A stretch of 54,979 nucleotides of DNA from a bacterium (GCA_021796335.1 JAJYHZ010000003.1:1-54979), one strand, 5' to 3'. Positions 34,553 to 47,042 are shown, numbered from the stretch's first letter. The notes: generated by a model not told the origin, from the letters alone. Translations and numbers: made by a program.

Positions 34553-36072
<1,520 letters not shown>

Positions 36073-36330
36073 TATTCAAGTGTCGTTCATCTTGTCGAAG
36101 ACAAGATCGCGGAAGGGCGCGAATAAAACGCGGACTGACGCGGAAAATTAAAAATTCCGCGTAGGTCTGTAATAAGTTTGCGTAAGTCAGCGTTCTCGCC
36201 TTCGACGAGATAGAAGGTGTTGATCGTGGAGCCTTTAAGTCACGATTTCGGGATGACTGAAAAAGTTCTGAAGGTTAAATTATATAGAAATAAGCACAAA
36301 TATTTGCGTTATAAACGCAAAAATAAAAGA

Positions 36331-36918: not shown

Positions 36919-37488
36919 ATGATTAATCAAAGAAAATCGGACGAAGTTTTGGCAAAGGGATTTACATTACTAGAACTTTTGATAGTTATCGCGATTTTGG
37001 CAATTCTGGCGACCGCAGTTGTTCTGGTTTTGAATCCGGCCCAATATTTGGCTCAGAGCCGAGATACGCAAAGGATGAACGATCTGGATACGGTAAAAAA
37101 TGCGATAAATTTGTATTTGGCTACGGCAACGAGCGTAAGCTGGACGCCGGTTACTTCTTGTGATCTTTCGGCGGTTGCTTCATGTACTAATCCTCCGACT
37201 GGCTGGACAATTGGTAGCGCAAGCACAAGCACGGCTATCAACGGCACGGGTTGGATAAATGTTCCGTTTAACGCATTACCTAACGGTTCTCCGCTGTCCA
37301 AACTTCCGTTGGATCCGGTAAACGGAATATCGGGAGGCGTTACATATTATTACGGATATAAGAGTTCGGCATCGCAAACGTTTAAATTAGTGGGAAAATT
37401 GGAAAGCTCCAAGTACAGTCCGCTTATGTCGACTGACGGAGGAACCGATAATAATTGGTATGAGGTTGGAACAGATATGAGTCTTTAA
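36919..37488 (+). CDS. Type IV major pilin-like prepilin
   Basis: KGFTLLELLIVIAILAILATAVVLVLNPAQYLAQSRDTQRMNDL. Confidence 0.92.
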   Translation: MINQRKSDEVLAKGFTLLELLIVIAILAILATAVVLVLNPAQYLAQSRDTQRMNDLDTVKNAINLYLATATSVSWTPVTSCDLSAVASCTNPPTGWTIGSASTSTAINGTGWINVPFNALPNGSPLSKLPLDPVNGISGGVTYYYGYKSSASQTFKLVGKLESSKYSPLMSTDGGTDNNWYEVGTDMSL

Positions 37489-37656: not shown

Positions 37657-39369
37657 ATGTTGCAACTTCCGCCGGAAAAACTGAAAGAAATATTATTAAA
37701 TGAAAATCTCGTCAGTTCCGATAAATTCGATGAGATTTTAAAAGAATCGGAAAGGCTGAACCAAAGAATTGAAGATATCTTGGTTTCCAAGGGAATTATT
37801 TCTTTTGACTATCTTTATAATTTGCTCTCAAATTATTTGGGAGTCCCTTTGATTGATCTGGGAGCGAGCGGAGCCATCGATGAATCGGTTTTGAACAAGT
37901 TAAGTCTGGATTTGGCAAGGCAAAAAAAGGTCATTATTTTCAAAAACGAGGGAGACGGGGAAATCGGAGCGGCGATGGAAGATCCGAGCGATTTGAAAAC
38001 CATCGAATTTTTAGAGCGGCATTTAAAAGCAAGAATCAGGCCGTATTTGGCCAAGCCGAGCGACCTGGAAAAAGGTTTCGCGATTTACAACAGGGAATTG
38101 ACGGAAGATTTCAAAAAGATCATCGAGGAAAACATCAAGAATAGCCTTCAGATCAAGAACGAAAAAATAGAACAAGTGGCGATGACCGTCCCTATTGTGG
38201 CAATTGTCGATAATTTCATCTCATACGCCAATTCTTTAAAAGCTTCGGATATTCACATCGAGGTGCTGGATGACACTGTTTTGGTGCGATTTCGAATCGA
38301 TGGGATTCTGCATGAAATAACCAAAATTCCGAAAGAAATCGATGCTTCGATATTGGCGCGTATAAAACTTTTGGCGGGACTCAAAATCGACGAGCATTAC
38401 AAACCGCAGGATGGTCGTTTTAAATTTACGGCGGGAGAAGAAAAAATCGACGTGCGCGTTTCGATAATGCCGACGCTTTACGGTGAGAAAACCGAAATGC
38501 GTTTATTACCGGCTGCGCAAAAACCGCTTTCACTGCAGGAAATTGGGATGCTGGACGATATGGCCGATACCATCAGAGAAAATTTGAAAAAAAGTTTCGG
38601 AATGCTCTTAATTTGCGGCCCGACTGGATCCGGAAAAACGACAACTTTGTATTCGATTTTAAATATAATCAATAAACCGGAGGTCAATATAGTTACTATA
38701 GAAGATCCGATTGAATACAACATCAAATACGTGAATCAAACCCAGATTAATCCGCAAGCCGGAATAACTTTCGCAAACGCGCTTCGTGCGTTCCTGAGGC
38801 AGGATCCGAATATCATCATGGTCGGTGAAATCCGCGACGAAGAAACCGCGGAAATTTCCGTGCATGCCGCTTTGACTGGGCATTTGCTTTTATCAAGCTT
38901 GCACACGAACAATTCCGCCTCGGTCATTCCGAGATTGGTTGATATGAAAGTTCCGCCTTTTTTGATTTCCGCCGTTTTGAATGTGGCGATGGCGCAAAGA
39001 TTGGTTAGAAAAATCTGCCTGAATTGCATTGAATCCGTAACGCCCACTCCGGAAATAATTCAAGGCATACAGAAACAAGCCGAAGAAATGGGATTGTCAA
39101 ATAAAGTCAATCCCCCGAAAATTTTATTCCATGGAAAGGGATGTTCGGTTTGCAACGGAACCGGTTATCAGGGAAGAATCGGGATTTTTGAGATTTTAAG
39201 CGTGGATAACGACGTAAGGGAATTAATAAACAGCCCGGAATTTTCTCTGGATGACTTGGATAATTTGTTAAAAAAGAAGGGAATGACTACAATGTTTGAA
39301 GACGGCTTTCGAAAGGCCGAATTGGGGATGACAACAATCGAAGAAGTGTTCAGGGTTATAAGAGAATAA
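37657..39369 (+). CDS. pilB: Type IV pilus assembly ATPase (GspE/PilB family)
   Basis: 570 aa; GPTGSGKTTTLYSIL, EDPIEY, RQDPNIIMVGEIRDEETAE, CxxC zinc motifs. Confidence 0.95.
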   Translation: MLQLPPEKLKEILLNENLVSSDKFDEILKESERLNQRIEDILVSKGIISFDYLYNLLSNYLGVPLIDLGASGAIDESVLNKLSLDLARQKKVIIFKNEGDGEIGAAMEDPSDLKTIEFLERHLKARIRPYLAKPSDLEKGFAIYNRELTEDFKKIIEENIKNSLQIKNEKIEQVAMTVPIVAIVDNFISYANSLKASDIHIEVLDDTVLVRFRIDGILHEITKIPKEIDASILARIKLLAGLKIDEHYKPQDGRFKFTAGEEKIDVRVSIMPTLYGEKTEMRLLPAAQKPLSLQEIGMLDDMADTIRENLKKSFGMLLICGPTGSGKTTTLYSILNIINKPEVNIVTIEDPIEYNIKYVNQTQINPQAGITFANALRAFLRQDPNIIMVGEIRDEETAEISVHAALTGHLLLSSLHTNNSASVIPRLVDMKVPPFLISAVLNVAMAQRLVRKICLNCIESVTPTPEIIQGIQKQAEEMGLSNKVNPPKILFHGKGCSVCNGTGYQGRIGIFEILSVDNDVRELINSPEFSLDDLDNLLKKKGMTTMFEDGFRKAELGMTTIEEVFRVIRE

Positions 39370-39445: not shown

Positions 39446-40654
39446 ATGAAATTTCACTATATCGCTTCGGAGGCGAATGGAAAAATTAAGGAGGGGGAAA
39501 TGGAGGCAAACGGGGTTGCGGAGGTTCTGGAATTTTTATCGGCGGAAGGACTCAAGCCCGTTTCTTTAAAAAAAGAAGAAGAATCTGTCGTGAAAAAATG
39601 GCATCTTTTTGAATCGTCGATTTCCGCAAGCGACAAGATTTTTCTGACCAAATATTTATCATTAATGTTGAGGATCGGAAGTGATTTATTCAAGGCTGTC
39701 GATATTTTGATTTCAGATTTTGACAAAGAGTCGGTAAGGTCATTTCTGTTTGAAGTCAGGGATAATTTAAGTAAAGGACAGCCGTTTCATGTCGCCTTTG
39801 AAAAATATCCAAAATATTTTTCTCCTGTTTTCGTTAATTTAGTGAGAGCGGGTGAAGTTTCGGGAAGTTTGGATAAAACTTTTGAAAAATTAAGCGAGAC
39901 TTTGCAGAAAGATCAGGAGCTAAGCCATGAGGTCCGAGCAGCTTTGACATACCCGATTTTGCTTGTCATCGTTTCGGTCTTAATAGTATTTTTCATTTCC
40001 ACATTCGCTTTACCGAAGATTGCGAAATTATTCACGGACAGCGGATTCGAACCGCCTCTTTTTTCAAAAATAGTTTTTGCAATCGGTTTATTTTTGAACC
40101 AATATTTCTTAATTATTTTAGCCGTTGTCATCGGCTTGGTTGTCGCTTTCTGGCTTCTGATGACCCAAACAGTCGCTTTTAAAAAAATATTCCAAAGGTT
40201 TATAAGGAAATTGCCCTTGATCGGGCCGTTATTGAAAAAAATCGCTTTGCAGCGATTTGCCGTAACTTTTGCGTCACTGTTGTCTTCTGGCTTGCCGATT
40301 TTGAAATCTTTGGAAATTACCGCCAATGCTGTGGGCGATGAGGAACTGAAGGAATCTTTGATTCGTATCGCCGATGAGGGGATAGCCAAGGGATTGACGA
40401 TAGGAGAAGCTTTCAAAAAAGAACCGGCCTTTCCGAAAATCATATCGAATTTCGTTTCGATTTCGGAAAAAAGCGGGAATCTTTCCGGCATTCTGTTTAC
40501 AATCTCTGATTTTTACGAGATTGAAATAAAATCTTCCATAAAAGTTCTTATTTCTTTTTTGGAGCCGATTCTTTTGTTGTTTATCGGTATTATTGTCGGA
40601 ACGATTGCTTTGGCGGTTATCGTACCGGTTTATCAATTAGTGGGAAAGTTCTAA
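39446..40654 (+). CDS. pilC: Type IV pilus inner-membrane platform (GspF/PilC family)
   Basis: 402 aa; LTKYLSLMLRIGSDLFKAVDIL...FVNLVRAGEVSGSLDKTFEKL...SGLPILKSLEI. Confidence 0.93.
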   Translation: MKFHYIASEANGKIKEGEMEANGVAEVLEFLSAEGLKPVSLKKEEESVVKKWHLFESSISASDKIFLTKYLSLMLRIGSDLFKAVDILISDFDKESVRSFLFEVRDNLSKGQPFHVAFEKYPKYFSPVFVNLVRAGEVSGSLDKTFEKLSETLQKDQELSHEVRAALTYPILLVIVSVLIVFFISTFALPKIAKLFTDSGFEPPLFSKIVFAIGLFLNQYFLIILAVVIGLVVAFWLLMTQTVAFKKIFQRFIRKLPLIGPLLKKIALQRFAVTFASLLSSGLPILKSLEITANAVGDEELKESLIRIADEGIAKGLTIGEAFKKEPAFPKIISNFVSISEKSGNLSGILFTISDFYEIEIKSSIKVLISFLEPILLLFIGIIVGTIALAVIVPVYQLVGKF

Positions 40655-40690: not shown

Positions 40691-41221
40691 ATGCGTGAAA
40701 TCAAATACAATAGAAGAAAAAAACAAGAAAATTTCAATTATTCAAATTTTCAATCTTGCAATTTGAATGGCGGTTTTACCCTGGTTGAAACAGTGCTTGT
40801 GATCGTCATTGTCGCGATTTTGGCGACTTTTGCGAGTTTCAATCTTTACGGTTCTTACCAAAATCAGCAATTGCAAAGCGATGCGGAAGAAATCGCTTAT
40901 GCGCTGCGCGGAGCTAGAGACAATTCCGTAAATCAAAAAAATTCCGACGAGTGGGGCGTTCATTTTGACAATGCCGCCAGCCCGACCGGATTTTTCGCCG
41001 TCTTTGAGGGTGCGAATTACGCTTCCGGAAAAAATATCGTCCGTACGAATTTAAGTTCTTCCGTAATTTTTAAAAATCCGCCCGTAGCCAGTTCGACTGA
41101 TATAATTTTTTCGAAAATGGCCGGATTGCCGTCAAGCGCCGCTTCCATTATAATCTCTTTAAATAATTCCTCATCCACCAAGGCAATAACAGTCAATTCG
41201 AGCGGAGAAATAAGTTATTAA
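40691..41221 (+). CDS. Prepilin-like protein (GspH-like)
   Basis: NGGFTLVETVLVIVIVAILATFASFNLYG; AEEIAYALRGARDNSVNQ. Confidence 0.85.
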   Translation: MREIKYNRRKKQENFNYSNFQSCNLNGGFTLVETVLVIVIVAILATFASFNLYGSYQNQQLQSDAEEIAYALRGARDNSVNQKNSDEWGVHFDNAASPTGFFAVFEGANYASGKNIVRTNLSSSVIFKNPPVASSTDIIFSKMAGLPSSAASIIISLNNSSSTKAITVNSSGEISY

Positions 41222-41224
41222 AAA

Positions 41225-44200
41225 ATGAAAAATCAAAACGGCCAGTCGTTAATGGAGATTTTAATAGGTCTGACCATCGGGGCCGCCGTAATAGGCGGAG
41301 TTTCCGCTTTAATTGCCGTCAATATGAGAAGTTCTTCCGACGCGAATTTGATACAAACAGCATCTAATCTGGCGCAGGATGAATTGAACTTGGTAAAATC
41401 GTCGGCGCAATCCGATTGGCACACGGTTTACAATCTGCAAAAAGGGGAAAACAGTCCCTATTATTTTTCGACTTCGACGGCAACCACTTCTTCTTCGACA
41501 CCTTATGATTTTTCCGGCGGGACTTTTGCAAGTACGACAATGAGCGGATCAAGCGTCGTGCTTCAGATAGAATCGCCGAACAATTTCGGTTCCGGAGCAG
41601 ACGGACCTCTGACTATCGCGCCTTCCGCGAATTATAATATAAATACGGACCAGAATTCCGATGCTAATAACAGCGATCCGGAAAAAGGAAATCGCACTTG
41701 CGCGGACGGAGCCGTATATGATGTCAATTCTTTGACTTCAAATTCCGCGACTTTGGCTTCAACTCCGGCAGCCGGCTGTCTGGTCCCGAATGATCTGGTT
41801 TTATTGATTAATGAGCAGGGCAACAGCGGTTCAACGGTTAATGTTGGTAATTACGAAATTTTGTCAGTGAATTCAGTTTCGGGTAATGTTGTTAATTTGA
41901 CCCAAAACAAAAAGTACTATGGCAGCGGAAATAGTGATAATATTGGCGATTGGAAATCTATTTCAAGTGACGACGAATCGACTTTAGCGATTAAAACAGA
42001 TGGCACTCTTTGGGCTTGGGGCGGTAACTGGGATGGTGGATTAGGATTAGGATCGGGGTCAAACATTTATTATTATTCACCTGTTCAAGTCGGTACTGAT
42101 AGCCATTGGGAATCAGTTTCATTGGGAGGCACTTACAGCAGTAAAACTGATAATTTCACTTTGGCAATTAAAACAGATGGCACTCTTTGGGCCTGGGGCA
42201 GTAACAATTATGGACAATTAGGCATAGGAAATACCGTTAATCAATTTTCTCCGGTTGAAGTTGGAACGTCTACTGATTGGAAATCGGTTTCAGCGGGAGA
42301 AGGATTTACTTTAGCAATCAAAACAGACGGCACTCTTTGGGCATGGGGAATTAACGATTGGGGTCAGTTGGGATTGGGTAATAATACGAACTACAATACT
42401 CCGCAACAGGTGGGAACGTCCGCAAATTGGGGGTCAATTTCAGCTGGAGAAAGTTCTAATTGGTGGGTAGGACATGGTTTTGCCTTGGCAACTAAAACAG
42501 ATGGCACTCTTTGGGCTTGGGGATACAATGGAAACGGTCAATTAGGTTTGGGGAATACTAATTCCTATTCTACGCCGCAGCAGGTGGGAACATCCACAAA
42601 CTGGAAGTCAATTTCAGCAGGAGATAATTTTTCTTTAGCGATTAAAACCGATGATACTTTATGGGCTTGGGGATTGAATAATACTGGGCAACTAGGTTTA
42701 GATAATCAAATAAATTATACTTCTCCGCAACAAGTAGGTAACGAGATAAACTGGCAATCAGCTTCAGCTGGAGATGCATTTTCATTGGCAATTAAAACAG
42801 ATGGCACTCTTTGGGCTTGGGGAGGAAATGGTTATGGTCAGCTTGGTTTAGGCAATACCGTTAATCAACTTTTGCCGGTCCAAGTCGGGACAAATAATAA
42901 TTGGCAATTTGCTTTGGCGAGTGGAAACGATTTTTATGATAACTATAGCAGTTCTTCAGCTTTGGGCTCTTCTTTTGCAATCCAAGCCGATAATGTTTTA
43001 TGGGTTTGGGGATCAAATAACGTCGGTCAATTGGGTTTGGGTATTCAGGCAAGCCAACAGTTGCCAACCCCTTTGCCTTACCAAAAAATAATTTTGCAAA
43101 GAATTCCGCAATACACTGATGTTACGGTAAATAGCGGAGGCAGTTTGACTGCCAACACCTGGAGTGGAACTGACGGCGGAATTCTGGCGTTTTTTGCCAA
43201 TGGGAAAATAACTATTGCGGGCAATATCAACATGCAGGGAAATGGGTACAGAACTTTTCCCGATACCGGCAGTTCTTATAGTAGCTTCGGTTCAGGAGAA
43301 TCGCGTTCTGGGCCTGGACTTTTAGAGTCGGGCGCCAATAACGACGGCGGTGGCGGCGGTGGGTATTTTTGGGATATTGGTTCTTATGATAGTAACTATT
43401 CCGGCGGGGGAGGTTACGGTATGCCGGGCGCTGACGGATTAGAAGGCAAAGGTGGAAATCAATACGGAAGTCAAACTTTGTCTTCCCAGATATTTTTGGG
43501 AAGCGCCGGCGGAGCTTATGATGGAGGAGGAGAGCCGCCTTGCTATAATACTTATTATTCCGGAGGAAATGGAGGAGGAATAGTTTTAATTAAAGGAAAT
43601 AACATTTCCATAAGCGGAGCAATTAATAATAGCGGAGGCAATGTTAATTGTCCTGATCCCGGAACCGGTTCCGGAGGATCAATTTACTTAGAAGGCAGTT
43701 CAATTGATGTTGGAAATAAAATAGTGACAGCAATAGCGGGGACAGGCGGAACTACCGGAGGAGTGGGCAGAATACATATAAAATACGGGACATTAAATGG
43801 AACCACGAACCCAAGCGCCTTTATGGAACATGGCTTTTATTATCCGGTCGGAACTTATACTTCAAGCATAATTGATACGCTTAAAAATAATTCAACCGCT
43901 GTTTTCAGCTGGAATGTTACTTTAAACGGAAACAGTTCCATTACCATGCAAGCGCGCGGAGCAAACAGTAATTCCGGAGTTTCATCAAAGCAATGGTGCT
44001 CCGTTACAAACGGAGGGGACATCTTAAGTTTGGGCAGTTCCTGCGCCGACCCCAACAGCAGGTACTTCCAGTTCAAGGCCACTTTATACGCTTCAAGCGA
44101 CAGAACGCAAACGCCTTATTTAAATTCGGTCGCCATAAATAATTTTTACCAGTCCAATTTTATTGCCGGAAAAGAATCGGTCAATATGAACGGGACAATT

Positions 44201-44872
44201 TTTACCAGATATTTTTATCTGGATAACGTTAGCAGGAATGATTGCGGTATCGGCGATATTTCAACAAGCAGTCCGACGGGTTGCATTAATATTCAAGGAG
44301 CGGGCCAAAACGATATTGCCAATGATCCTTCAACGCAAAAAATCACGGTTGTTGTCGCGAAAGGGAGTAACGATATAATCCGCCAAAGCCAATACCTTAC
44401 AATGTTCAAGGATTATGTTTTCAAACAGAACGATTGGAGCGGGGGATCCAAACAAGAATATTTCCCGCCGGTCGTTAATAATAAATTCGCCGCTTTTACG
44501 GGAATTAGCGTTTCTACTCCGGGAAATTTAACAATGACCTCGCCGACAACCACCATATCCTATTTAATTTCGTCGGTTTTTTATTCCGGATTGGCCAATT
44601 TGAACAGCATTTTGTGGCAGGGATTGACAAACGGCGGCAGCGTACAGTTCCAGATAGCTTCTGCGAATTCTTCAGCAGGGCCGTGGAATTATCTCGGTCC
44701 TGACGGGACAAATTTAACTTATTACAGCGCCGGTCCGGGAATTTCCATTCAGCTTAATCCGCAATACAACGGTGGAATTTCTTATTTCCGATACAGGATA
44801 ATTTTGAACCCCGATTCGCAGGAGAAAAATTCGCCTTCGGTGAATAGTATCGTTATAAATTACAATATTTAG
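41225..44872 (+). CDS. Giant pseudopilin-like protein with inserted seven-repeat RCC1 propeller and Gly-rich region
   Basis: 1215 aa; N-terminus NGQSLMEILIGLTIGAAVIGGVSALIA; seven RCC1-like units (LAIKTDGTLWAWGxNxxGQLGLGN); then GGGGGGY and C-terminal beta-rich region. Confidence 0.9.
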   Translation: MKNQNGQSLMEILIGLTIGAAVIGGVSALIAVNMRSSSDANLIQTASNLAQDELNLVKSSAQSDWHTVYNLQKGENSPYYFSTSTATTSSSTPYDFSGGTFASTTMSGSSVVLQIESPNNFGSGADGPLTIAPSANYNINTDQNSDANNSDPEKGNRTCADGAVYDVNSLTSNSATLASTPAAGCLVPNDLVLLINEQGNSGSTVNVGNYEILSVNSVSGNVVNLTQNKKYYGSGNSDNIGDWKSISSDDESTLAIKTDGTLWAWGGNWDGGLGLGSGSNIYYYSPVQVGTDSHWESVSLGGTYSSKTDNFTLAIKTDGTLWAWGSNNYGQLGIGNTVNQFSPVEVGTSTDWKSVSAGEGFTLAIKTDGTLWAWGINDWGQLGLGNNTNYNTPQQVGTSANWGSISAGESSNWWVGHGFALATKTDGTLWAWGYNGNGQLGLGNTNSYSTPQQVGTSTNWKSISAGDNFSLAIKTDDTLWAWGLNNTGQLGLDNQINYTSPQQVGNEINWQSASAGDAFSLAIKTDGTLWAWGGNGYGQLGLGNTVNQLLPVQVGTNNNWQFALASGNDFYDNYSSSSALGSSFAIQADNVLWVWGSNNVGQLGLGIQASQQLPTPLPYQKIILQRIPQYTDVTVNSGGSLTANTWSGTDGGILAFFANGKITIAGNINMQGNGYRTFPDTGSSYSSFGSGESRSGPGLLESGANNDGGGGGGYFWDIGSYDSNYSGGGGYGMPGADGLEGKGGNQYGSQTLSSQIFLGSAGGAYDGGGEPPCYNTYYSGGNGGGIVLIKGNNISISGAINNSGGNVNCPDPGTGSGGSIYLEGSSIDVGNKIVTAIAGTGGTTGGVGRIHIKYGTLNGTTNPSAFMEHGFYYPVGTYTSSIIDTLKNNSTAVFSWNVTLNGNSSITMQARGANSNSGVSSKQWCSVTNGGDILSLGSSCADPNSRYFQFKATLYASSDRTQTPYLNSVAINNFYQSNFIAGKESVNMNGTIFTRYFYLDNVSRNDCGIGDISTSSPTGCINIQGAGQNDIANDPSTQKITVVVAKGSNDIIRQSQYLTMFKDYVFKQNDWSGGSKQEYFPPVVNNKFAAFTGISVSTPGNLTMTSPTTTISYLISSVFYSGLANLNSILWQGLTNGGSVQFQIASANSSAGPWNYLGPDGTNLTYYSAGPGISIQLNPQYNGGISYFRYRIILNPDSQEKNSPSVNSIVINYNI
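41940..43070 (+). repeat. Seven tandem RCC1-unit coding repeats, several near-identical at DNA level
   Basis: aaaacagatggcactctttgggcttgggg recurs nearly unchanged near 41993, 42168, 42319, 42490 and 42790, with a diverged copy near 42642. Confidence 0.85.
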
Positions 44873-44946: not shown

Positions 44947-45408
44947 ATGAAATTTTCAGAAATTTTTATAATTAAAATCAGGCGGGGATTTGTGGCGTTG
45001 CCGATGATTCTTCTGATAAGCGGGATTGTTTTGGAAATTTCCGTGTCTCTTGCTCTAATAACTTTTTACGTAGTTCAAAACAGCGCGAACGGCAAATATT
45101 CTAATCAAGCCTTGTCCGCGGCGCAAGCGGGTATTGACGACGCATTGATGCAGCTGAAAAGAAATAATAATTTTTCAAATACCAACGGTTATAATTTGAC
45201 TGTTGAAAACAGTTTCGCAACAATCGTGGTTTGCAAGGATTTTTTGTCAACAACGTATGCTCCCTGTTCGGTATCGAATCCGGGAGAAGATGAAATAACT
45301 TCAACCGGGCAATCTTTCGGAAGAAGCAGAAAGATGCGTGCTATTGTTGATGTATCTACAAGTACCGGAGAAATTGATGTAAAATCAATACAGGAGATTT
45401 CGTTGTAA
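44947..45408 (+). CDS. PilX-like pilus minor component
   Basis: 153 aa; RRGFVALPMILLISGIVLEISVSLALITFYVVQNS...ALSAAQAGIDDALMQL. Confidence 0.7.
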   Translation: MKFSEIFIIKIRRGFVALPMILLISGIVLEISVSLALITFYVVQNSANGKYSNQALSAAQAGIDDALMQLKRNNNFSNTNGYNLTVENSFATIVVCKDFLSTTYAPCSVSNPGEDEITSTGQSFGRSRKMRAIVDVSTSTGEIDVKSIQEISL

Positions 45409-45536: not shown

Positions 45537-47042
45537 GTGCGGATGAAATTCAAAACTTTTTTAAATTTAATAAATCCTCAGCCTGAAATCGGCGGGTTTG
45601 AAATAAATGATTTTGGAATAAAATTTATCGAGTTAAGGGGGAAAAAGACAAGTCTTGCGTCAATTCAATTGCCGCCGGGGATTATCGAGGAGGGGAAAAT
45701 TAAGGATAAAGATAAATTTTTTGAAATTATCTCCGAATTCCGGAATAAAATAACAAAGAGTAAGCGGAAAAAAATACACATAGTCGCCAGTATTTCAGAT
45801 ACCAATATTTATACGGAATCCTTTGTTCTCCCGCGATCAGTCGGTTCAAAACTTAACGAAGCCGCTGATTTGAACTTGCGGATGATCTCCCCTATTGATT
45901 TTGACGCTTCTTATCATGACTGGCAGCTGGTGGGGGAGCGGCTGGTAAACGGAACAAGTCAGCTGGAAATTTTCGGCGCTTTTATTCCGAAACAGGCAGT
46001 GGACGATTTTGAAGAGATTTTACTTAAGGCTGGATTTGAGGTTGTCGCTTTCGAATTTCCGACTTATGCTTTGACGCGGACGATAATGGAAATCGGGGAA
46101 GGATTTGCGAAAGAAAAAAATTACCTTTTGGTGAAAATCGGATCAGACAATCTGTCCTTTGGTTTGATTAAAAACGGCAATCTTAATTTTCTGCATTTCG
46201 TTTCCTGGAAATCCGTTTACGGAGAAGAGAAAAAAATACCTTTGCAAAGTTTTGAGAATTTGATTGTTGATGAAGTTAAAAAAGTTTTGAAATTTCAGGA
46301 GACTCATTCGACTACGGCAATCGACGGGCTGATTTTATTCTCGCCAAATTTAATAAAAGAGCTTTCAAAAATAATTTCAGATAATTTTCCCAATCTGCCG
46401 TTGATGATGCCGAATATAAACAAATTTAAAGATTTGGCTCCGGCGTGGTTCGGCGTTTTAGGTTCGGCCTTAAGAGGCGCTTTTTTCGCCGATACCTCAA
46501 GCAAGATGATTAATTTGGCGGGTTCGGAAACTACCAAGAGGTTTGACACTTATCAAATCTTAAGTTTTATCAAAATTTGGAGGAGTTTGATCGTGATATT
46601 TTTTGGATTGGTTTTGATTTTTTATGCGGGGCTGGACGTTTTTCTTTATAAATACGCGAGCCAACTGGCCGATCAGAATCAAAATGTAAAAAATCCGGAA
46701 GTTCAGATGTTGGGCCAGCTGCAGAAAGCAGCCGAGGATTTCAATCAAAAAGTGGATAATTATTATCAAATCCGCCAAAATGAGCTTAATTGGTCTTCAT
46801 TCTTCCAGAATGTGGAGAGTTTGGCGGGCGCTGATATAACAATAAAACGCATTTATGTGCAATCGAAAAATTCGCCGGTATTACTATTAGGAGAAGCATC
46901 GAATAATGACGCGATAATTGCTTTTAAAAAAGCGTTGGAGAGCGACAATCATTTCTCAAATATTAATTTTGAACTTTCCAGTATTGTTCCTGACGGGAAA
47001 AACTACGATTTCAGTATAAGTTTTTCCATTATTAAAATTTAA
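45537..47042 (+). CDS. GspL-like PilM-PilN fusion protein
   Basis: 501 aa; PilM-like part (GFEINDFGIKFIELRGKK; ESFVLPRSVGSKLNEAADLNL), TM WRSLIVIFFGLVLIFYAGLDVFL, then PilN-like C-terminal part. Confidence 0.75.
   Translation: MRMKFKTFLNLINPQPEIGGFEINDFGIKFIELRGKKTSLASIQLPPGIIEEGKIKDKDKFFEIISEFRNKITKSKRKKIHIVASISDTNIYTESFVLPRSVGSKLNEAADLNLRMISPIDFDASYHDWQLVGERLVNGTSQLEIFGAFIPKQAVDDFEEILLKAGFEVVAFEFPTYALTRTIMEIGEGFAKEKNYLLVKIGSDNLSFGLIKNGNLNFLHFVSWKSVYGEEKKIPLQSFENLIVDEVKKVLKFQETHSTTAIDGLILFSPNLIKELSKIISDNFPNLPLMMPNINKFKDLAPAWFGVLGSALRGAFFADTSSKMINLAGSETTKRFDTYQILSFIKIWRSLIVIFFGLVLIFYAGLDVFLYKYASQLADQNQNVKNPEVQMLGQLQKAAEDFNQKVDNYYQIRQNELNWSSFFQNVESLAGADITIKRIYVQSKNSPVLLLGEASNNDAIIAFKKALESDNHFSNINFELSSIVPDGKNYDFSISFSIIKI

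Follow-up and report, generated by a model that had tools for sequence, protein, structure and literature searches.

A PilV-like minor prepilin with a seven-bladed RCC1 beta-propeller predicted to be nested within its pilin fold

The window analysed here is a whole stretch of 54,979 nucleotides from a bacterial genome, and it contains a pil locus in which a response regulator gene is followed by genes for a pilin, PilB, PilC, a GspH-like pilin, a pilin of 1,215 amino acids, a PilX-like protein and PilM/N (Table 1). A full-length 16S rRNA gene is found just upstream of this operon, at 34553-36073. Relatives keep the order pilB, pilC, GspH-like pilin, PilV-like pilin, PilX-like gene and pilMN, with a downstream module gene placed between the PilV-like pilin and the PilX-like gene in most of them. 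A preliminary description of this DNA had placed a giant pseudopilin-like protein inside a pilB-pilC-pilin operon, and both the gene neighbours and their conserved order bear this out.

Table 1. Genes of the pil locus and parts of the 1,215-residue pilin, with positions in the window
Feature	Coordinates	Strand	Basis
Class III pilin (GFTLLELL), probable major pilin	36919..37488	+	N_methyl 3e-7
PilB assembly ATPase	37657..39369	+	T2SSE 1e-119, MshEN; best NCBIfam model is PilB
PilC membrane platform	39446..40654	+	T2SSF 1e-48
GspH/FimT-like minor pilin	40691..41221	+	Pfam GspH, TIGR01708; separated by 3 bases from the propeller pilin gene
Modular PilV-like minor prepilin, 1,215 aa	41225..44872	+	Intact ORF; N_methyl and RCC1 Pfam matches; orthologs in same operon slot
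Residues 1-92, N-terminal part of the pilin: leader MKNQNG with predicted cut at G6/Q7; Glu+5; long helix	41225..41500	+	Pfam N_methyl; alignment to residues 1-~90 of insert-less orthologs
Carrier first half X, residues 93-240	41501..41944	+	51% identity to L039 of own genome, 41% to L052 of G020
Seven RCC1 repeats, residues 242-620, seven-bladed beta-propeller (predicted)	41948..43084	+	Pfam RCC1 3e-71, 7 stretches; model pLDDT 89; UVR8 TM 0.83/0.90
Carrier second half Y, Gly-rich, AgmC-like, residues 641-866	43145..43822	+	NF047640 E=5e-14, below cut-off; 54% identity to L039
Beta module Z, residues 867-976	43823..44152	+	Matches in L052, L054, L055, L059, L092 (giant secreted proteins from relatives)
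Pilin beta-sheet part, residues 977-1105	44153..44539	+	Contiguous with N-terminal part in insert-less orthologs; A4 model positions 95-220
C-terminal module, residues 1106-1215	44540..44869	+	C-terminus of separate downstream secreted protein in most relatives
PilX/GspK-like minor pilin candidate	44947..45408	+	Weak GspK match, E=0.05; position conserved in relatives
Fused PilM-PilN-like protein	45537..47042	+	PilM_2 3e-7, weak PilN; TIGR01175

The large pilin is encoded by a single uninterrupted frame and is a real, intact and well-formed protein. Its N-terminus had been read as a class III signal, and this reading holds: a short hydrophilic leader ending in Gly is followed by Glu at +5 and a long hydrophobic helix (MKNQNG/QSLMEILIGLTIGAAVIGGVSALIA). 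Cleavage is predicted at MKNQNG/QSLMEIL, with Gly at -1, and the mature protein (residues 7-1215) has a computed mass of ~127 kDa and a computed pI of 4.4. The Pfam family N_methyl matches residues 1-26 with 21.0 bits against a cut-off of 21.2 when the whole protein is searched, and with 26.9 bits, above the cut-off, in the genome-wide scan. The pattern G-Q-x-x-x-E, which includes Gly-1 and Glu+5, is retained by all aligned orthologs. When bacterial genome contigs were scanned with the whole protein, the sole match was to RCC1 in an Oscillospiraceae genome.

The RCC1 region is made up of exactly seven repeats (residues 242-293, 294-350, 351-400, 401-458, 459-508, 509-558 and 559-620), the number that had been counted from the DNA alone, and they fall between the two landmarks given in the preliminary description. 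All seven blades are intact and their core residues are conserved. A scan of the 752-kb own genome found no RCC1 besides these seven repeats. An AlphaFold2 model of residues 236-631, based on an alignment of 13 relatives, has a mean pLDDT of 89, a pTM of 0.88 and 28 strands, corresponding to seven blades of four strands each. In a search of the PDB, this model matched UVR8 over its full length, with TM scores of 0.83 (query) and 0.90 (target) and 2.0 Å over ~390 columns. HERC2, RPGR, HERC1 and RCC1 came after UVR8, and BLIP-II was also among the fold matches. Because of the 28-strand model and the long UVR8 alignment, a closed seven-bladed ring is well supported as a predicted structure, in agreement with the complete propeller first proposed. 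The propeller is acidic in composition, with a pI of 4.1 and 12 Lys and Arg against 28 Asp and Glu. A model of almost the full length (residues 16-1215) has a mean pLDDT of 50 and is confident in the propeller alone, while the pilin, carrier and C-terminal parts, for which the alignment holds no relatives, lie mostly below 50. The arrangement of the propeller within the rest of the protein is thus deduced from sequence comparison.

This comparison starts from relatives that have the same pilin without the RCC1 insert, a search for which had been suggested in the preliminary description. In most relatives, residues 1-92 and 977-1105 adjoin and form one ordinary pilin of ~220 amino acids. A4, the model of this insert-less pilin, has matches in 153 of 200 genomes from the order, and it is split at about position 95 in the 1,215-residue protein, where 886 residues intervene. 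Alignment to these orthologs shows an insert of ~886 residues (~92 kDa) between the predicted long helix and the predicted beta-sheet of one PilV-like pilin. The PilV model TIGR02523 matches the 1,215-residue protein with 22.0 bits (E=1.8e-4) against a curated cut-off of 52.2, and it matches six of nine insert-less orthologs at E<=0.01. The pilin is therefore called PilV-like only, and its assignment to PilV is weak.

What follows the propeller had been described as a Gly-rich turn and a C-terminal beta region. Both are present, but they resolve into four parts, namely the AgmC-like module, the beta module Z, the pilin beta-sheet and the C-terminal module. The last of these is a separate entity in most relatives, in which the downstream gene encodes a secreted protein with YAWNDxIGW repeats and a C-terminus homologous to residues 1106-1215. 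In L040 and L042, from two genera, the C-terminal module is already fused to an insert-less pilin of ~345 amino acids. A pilin of ~490 amino acids, fused with the downstream YAWNDxIGW-repeat protein, occurs in L048-L051, from four genomes of one other genus.

The insert itself appears to be composite. Like the strongly acidic carrier, the insert is acidic, and it is rich in Gly, Ser, Thr and Asn. The two halves of the carrier, X and Y, flank the propeller, and the second resembles the N-terminal region of AgmC; the NF047640 model gives 52.1 bits over residues 626-845, below its curated cut-off of 275. The own genome encodes a 1,832-residue Sec-type secreted protein (L039:5003-10498, minus strand), in which the X and Y halves adjoin via a short linker and RCC1 is absent; identity to the pilin insert is 51% for X and 54% for Y. 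This protein continues after the carrier module with many fibronectin-like domains, and it is likely to be a relative of the source of the carrier. In G020, of another genus, a secreted protein of 2,239 residues (L052) has the same carrier with RCC1 in the same gap. These AgmC-like giant proteins therefore share the carrier with the pilin, with or without RCC1 between its halves, but they differ in having a Sec-type N-terminus, further surface domains and no pilin parts. From these alignments, the propeller is predicted to lie in a loop of an AgmC-like carrier, and the carrier in a loop of the pilin. The first impression of a pseudopilin bearing a propeller was correct as to both components, pilin and complete propeller, but it missed the nesting: the protein is more than a pilin head with the propeller behind it. 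Neither the carrier module nor the pilin N-terminus was found when viral contigs were scanned for them. Tandem rows of separate RCC1 proteins of ~400 amino acids were seen on viral contigs (six in L094:211-8203, and others in L095-L098); they are 44-54% identical to the propeller of the pilin, and their role in the phage is not obvious.

The same pilin carries inserts in other genomes. In G004, which belongs to a different genus, RCC1 repeats lie between the same two pilin halves and the carrier is absent. This gene is interrupted by a scaffold gap, and an apparent break in it was not retained as a mutation since the translation enters a string of X there. The best match of the G004 repeats is L142 of G444, whereas the nearest RCC1 relatives of the 1,215-residue pilin are L136 of G300 and L052 of G020, and this difference points to separate acquisition of RCC1 in the two pilins. 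Twenty further orthologs were chosen for an apparently split match to the pilin model or for a long frame. A large insert is present in 18 of them, mostly of ~200 residues and in one case of 408, and every one of these 18 inserts matches Laminin_G_3 (ConA-like lectin/glucanase) in Pfam, so that at least 18 other genomes have this arrangement. The lectin inserts occupy the loop that leads from the first conserved beta-strand to the FxRYFxVxNVxR strand, and the RCC1 site precedes that first strand. An identical insertion point for both was considered and dropped because the alignment puts Laminin_G_3 one loop on, ~10-15 residues further.

A phylum-wide sample of 380 genomes contains 26 with RCC1, and within the order 10 of 200 have it. 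RCC1 follows a PilX-like N-terminus as a C-terminal part in L130, L131 (twice), L138, L145 and L149, it occurs with a weak PilX_N match in L135, and class III pilins with RCC1 are found in L156 and L139. Since RCC1 sits on several pilin-like proteins within this sample, propeller-bearing pilins seem to be recurrent yet uncommon. The two proteins of L131 (289-3492 and 4736-7639) are neighbours, and their C-terminal RCC1 arrays of 11-12 repeats each exceed one propeller.

As for the assembly apparatus, the locus of the propeller pilin has its own PilB and PilC and is without its own PilT. In the 752-kb own genome, which can be called Patescibacteria-like solely from its small size and its small-genome relatives, 12 prepilin candidates and four PilB-type ATPases are encoded on contig C1 and in the window, together with a single PilD, from another pil locus, and a single clear PilT, likewise outside the locus of the propeller pilin. 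Several pilus systems of this genome would share processing and perhaps retraction. ComEC is encoded in the genome as well. A second large pilin, of 615 amino acids and with CarboxypepD_reg (carboxypeptidase-regulatory-like) modules, is found at L213:6846-8693 on the minus strand, in a pil locus that has its own PilB and PilC.

A characterised pilin of this kind does exist, although the preliminary description knew of none. PilX2 of TM7x (Nanosynbacter lyticus), an episymbiont of the candidate phyla radiation, is a minor pilin whose RCC1 propeller has seven blades, and deletion of pilX2 reduces host binding from ~10.6% to 4.6% (PMC12206443). Loss of pilX2 also altered the number and length of filaments, and in mutants of the propeller-pilin pilus neither motility nor competence was impaired beyond controls (PMC12206443). 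The two pilins have in common a seven-bladed RCC1 propeller on a minor pilin and a system without a linked retraction ATPase. They differ in that PilX2, as described in PMC12206443, has its propeller at the C-terminus and no predicted PilD signal, whereas the 1,215-residue protein starts with a class III signal of the canonical type, Glu+5 included, is PilV-like, and holds an internal propeller, within a carrier that appears to be inside the pilin fold.

Internal insertion is also known. ComZ of Thermus thermophilus has a beta-solenoid inserted in its pilin fold, binds DNA, shows no obvious positive patch, and is argued to fit only at the filament tip (PMC6561018). In ComZ and GspK, large domains, a DNA-binding beta-solenoid and an alpha domain, respectively, are inserted among the pilin beta-sheet elements at later strands, and a tip location has been argued (PMC6561018; PMC8179133). 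The 1,215-residue pilin shares this architecture, which does not mean homology to ComZ, but its insert precedes the first conserved beta-strand and contains a propeller within a carrier. In having a pilin core common to insert-less orthologs together with RCC1 and the carrier, it belongs with the modular pilins surveyed in PMC8179133, the main text of which makes no mention of RCC1. Examples are PilB (vWA) and PilC (lectin) of Streptococcus sanguinis, minor pilins that present a grafted binding module on the filament (PMC8179133; PMC9934059). The structure of this PilC has been solved, and its ConA-like lectin module binds glycans and has been modelled at the tip (PMC9934059). The module is a parallel to the Laminin_G_3 inserts in relatives of the 1,215-residue pilin, though both S. 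sanguinis modules are C-terminal grafts, unlike the internal insert described here. Finally, the PilY1/PilC tip adhesins place a beta-propeller at the tip of the type IV pilus via minor pilins (PMC8179133; PMC12206443); PilY1 is not a pilin and its propeller is of another family (IPR008707), whereas the propeller of the 1,215-residue protein is an integral part of a pilin.

On these grounds, the 1,215-residue protein is probably a modular minor type IV pilin that displays a recognition module. Its likely place is the tip of the pilus, where it would grip a neighbouring, probably host, cell. In the mechanism envisaged, PilD would cleave the prepilin after G6, the helix would pack into a filament assembled by the linked PilB and PilC, and the pilin would become part of an H/V/X-type complex of minor pilins, by which the filament is initiated and capped. 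The tip position is suggested because an insert of this mass would be hard to pack in the filament body; it could be accommodated only at or near the tip, with the propeller facing outward. The ligand of the propeller may then be a surface protein or glycan of the neighbouring, probably host, cell, and in relatives the lectin inserts may have the equivalent role towards a different ligand. Cleavage, tip placement and adhesion are all proposals, the last two drawn from the bulk of the insert and from the published parallels above. That binding-type modules were repeatedly recruited to the same pilin, RCC1 in G004 and Laminin_G_3 in 18 orthologs, suggests display as the role of the insert. RCC1 folds serve many unrelated functions, and this counts against the reading as an adhesin.

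Four other explanations must be weighed against the display of a recognition module. First, the protein may be a structural or assembly subunit, the pilin core of which primes the filament, as it would almost everywhere in the order, with the insert as a passive spacer or decoy under little constraint. The conservation of the pilin beside inserts that are gained and lost, and the effect of pilX2 loss on TM7x filaments (PMC12206443), would fit this explanation, but seven intact blades with conserved core residues and the recurrent recruitment of binding-type families to one pilin make it unlikely. Slightly less likely still is that the insert serves, in the manner of ComZ, to capture DNA at the tip for natural transformation instead of adhering to cells. 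No other precedent for a large beta domain inside a pilin fold is as close as ComZ (PMC6561018), and a ComEC is available in the genome. However, DNA binding is made less likely by the acidic, Gly/Ser/Thr/Asn-rich insert, although ComZ also does without an obvious positive patch; the same pilin bears lectin-like modules in relatives, and the TM7x mutants stayed competent (PMC12206443). Third, the locus might encode a type II-like secretion pseudopilus, and the propeller protein, or an insert cleaved from it, would then function away from the filament, for instance as an inhibitor such as BLIP-II is for beta-lactamase. The locus without its own PilT and the fold match to BLIP-II would allow this, but PilB, PilC and PilMN agree with a type IVa pilus and no sign of a cleavage site was seen between the modules, so that we regard it as improbable. 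An assembly chimera, in which a pilin gene was misjoined to a fragment of a surface-protein gene, is very improbable even though this type of insert is otherwise found in giant Sec-secreted proteins, because both junctions are in frame, the downstream pilin half is intact, the genome has no second RCC1 copy to supply the misjoin, the nearest carrier copy is merely 51-54% identical, and G004 independently has RCC1 at the same site.

Thus, an RCC1 propeller on a minor pilin, modular pilins, and inserts inside the pilin fold were already known from TM7x PilX2, from earlier surveys, and from ComZ and GspK, respectively. What is new is the combination of a propeller in a carrier in a canonical class III pilin, as predicted here, with the repeated use of lectins or propellers by one conserved pilin. 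A wider view, which we offer as possible rather than probable, is that the PilV-like pilin is an exchangeable display scaffold across the whole small-genome order. Two adjacent loops would accept lectin, RCC1 or nested modules, partner specificity would evolve by swapping inserts from secreted surface proteins, and the core would keep its role in assembly. Because this pilin belongs to a lineage separate from TM7x PilX2 and would have reached its propeller by another route, internal insertion instead of C-terminal fusion, it supports the view that propellers have been adopted repeatedly for pilus-mediated contact. A natural control is at hand, since this pilin occurs in insert-less, lectin-bearing and propeller-bearing forms. 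Host recognition by ultrasmall episymbiotic bacteria is still poorly understood, and the 1,215-residue pilin is a defined and testable candidate for this recognition.
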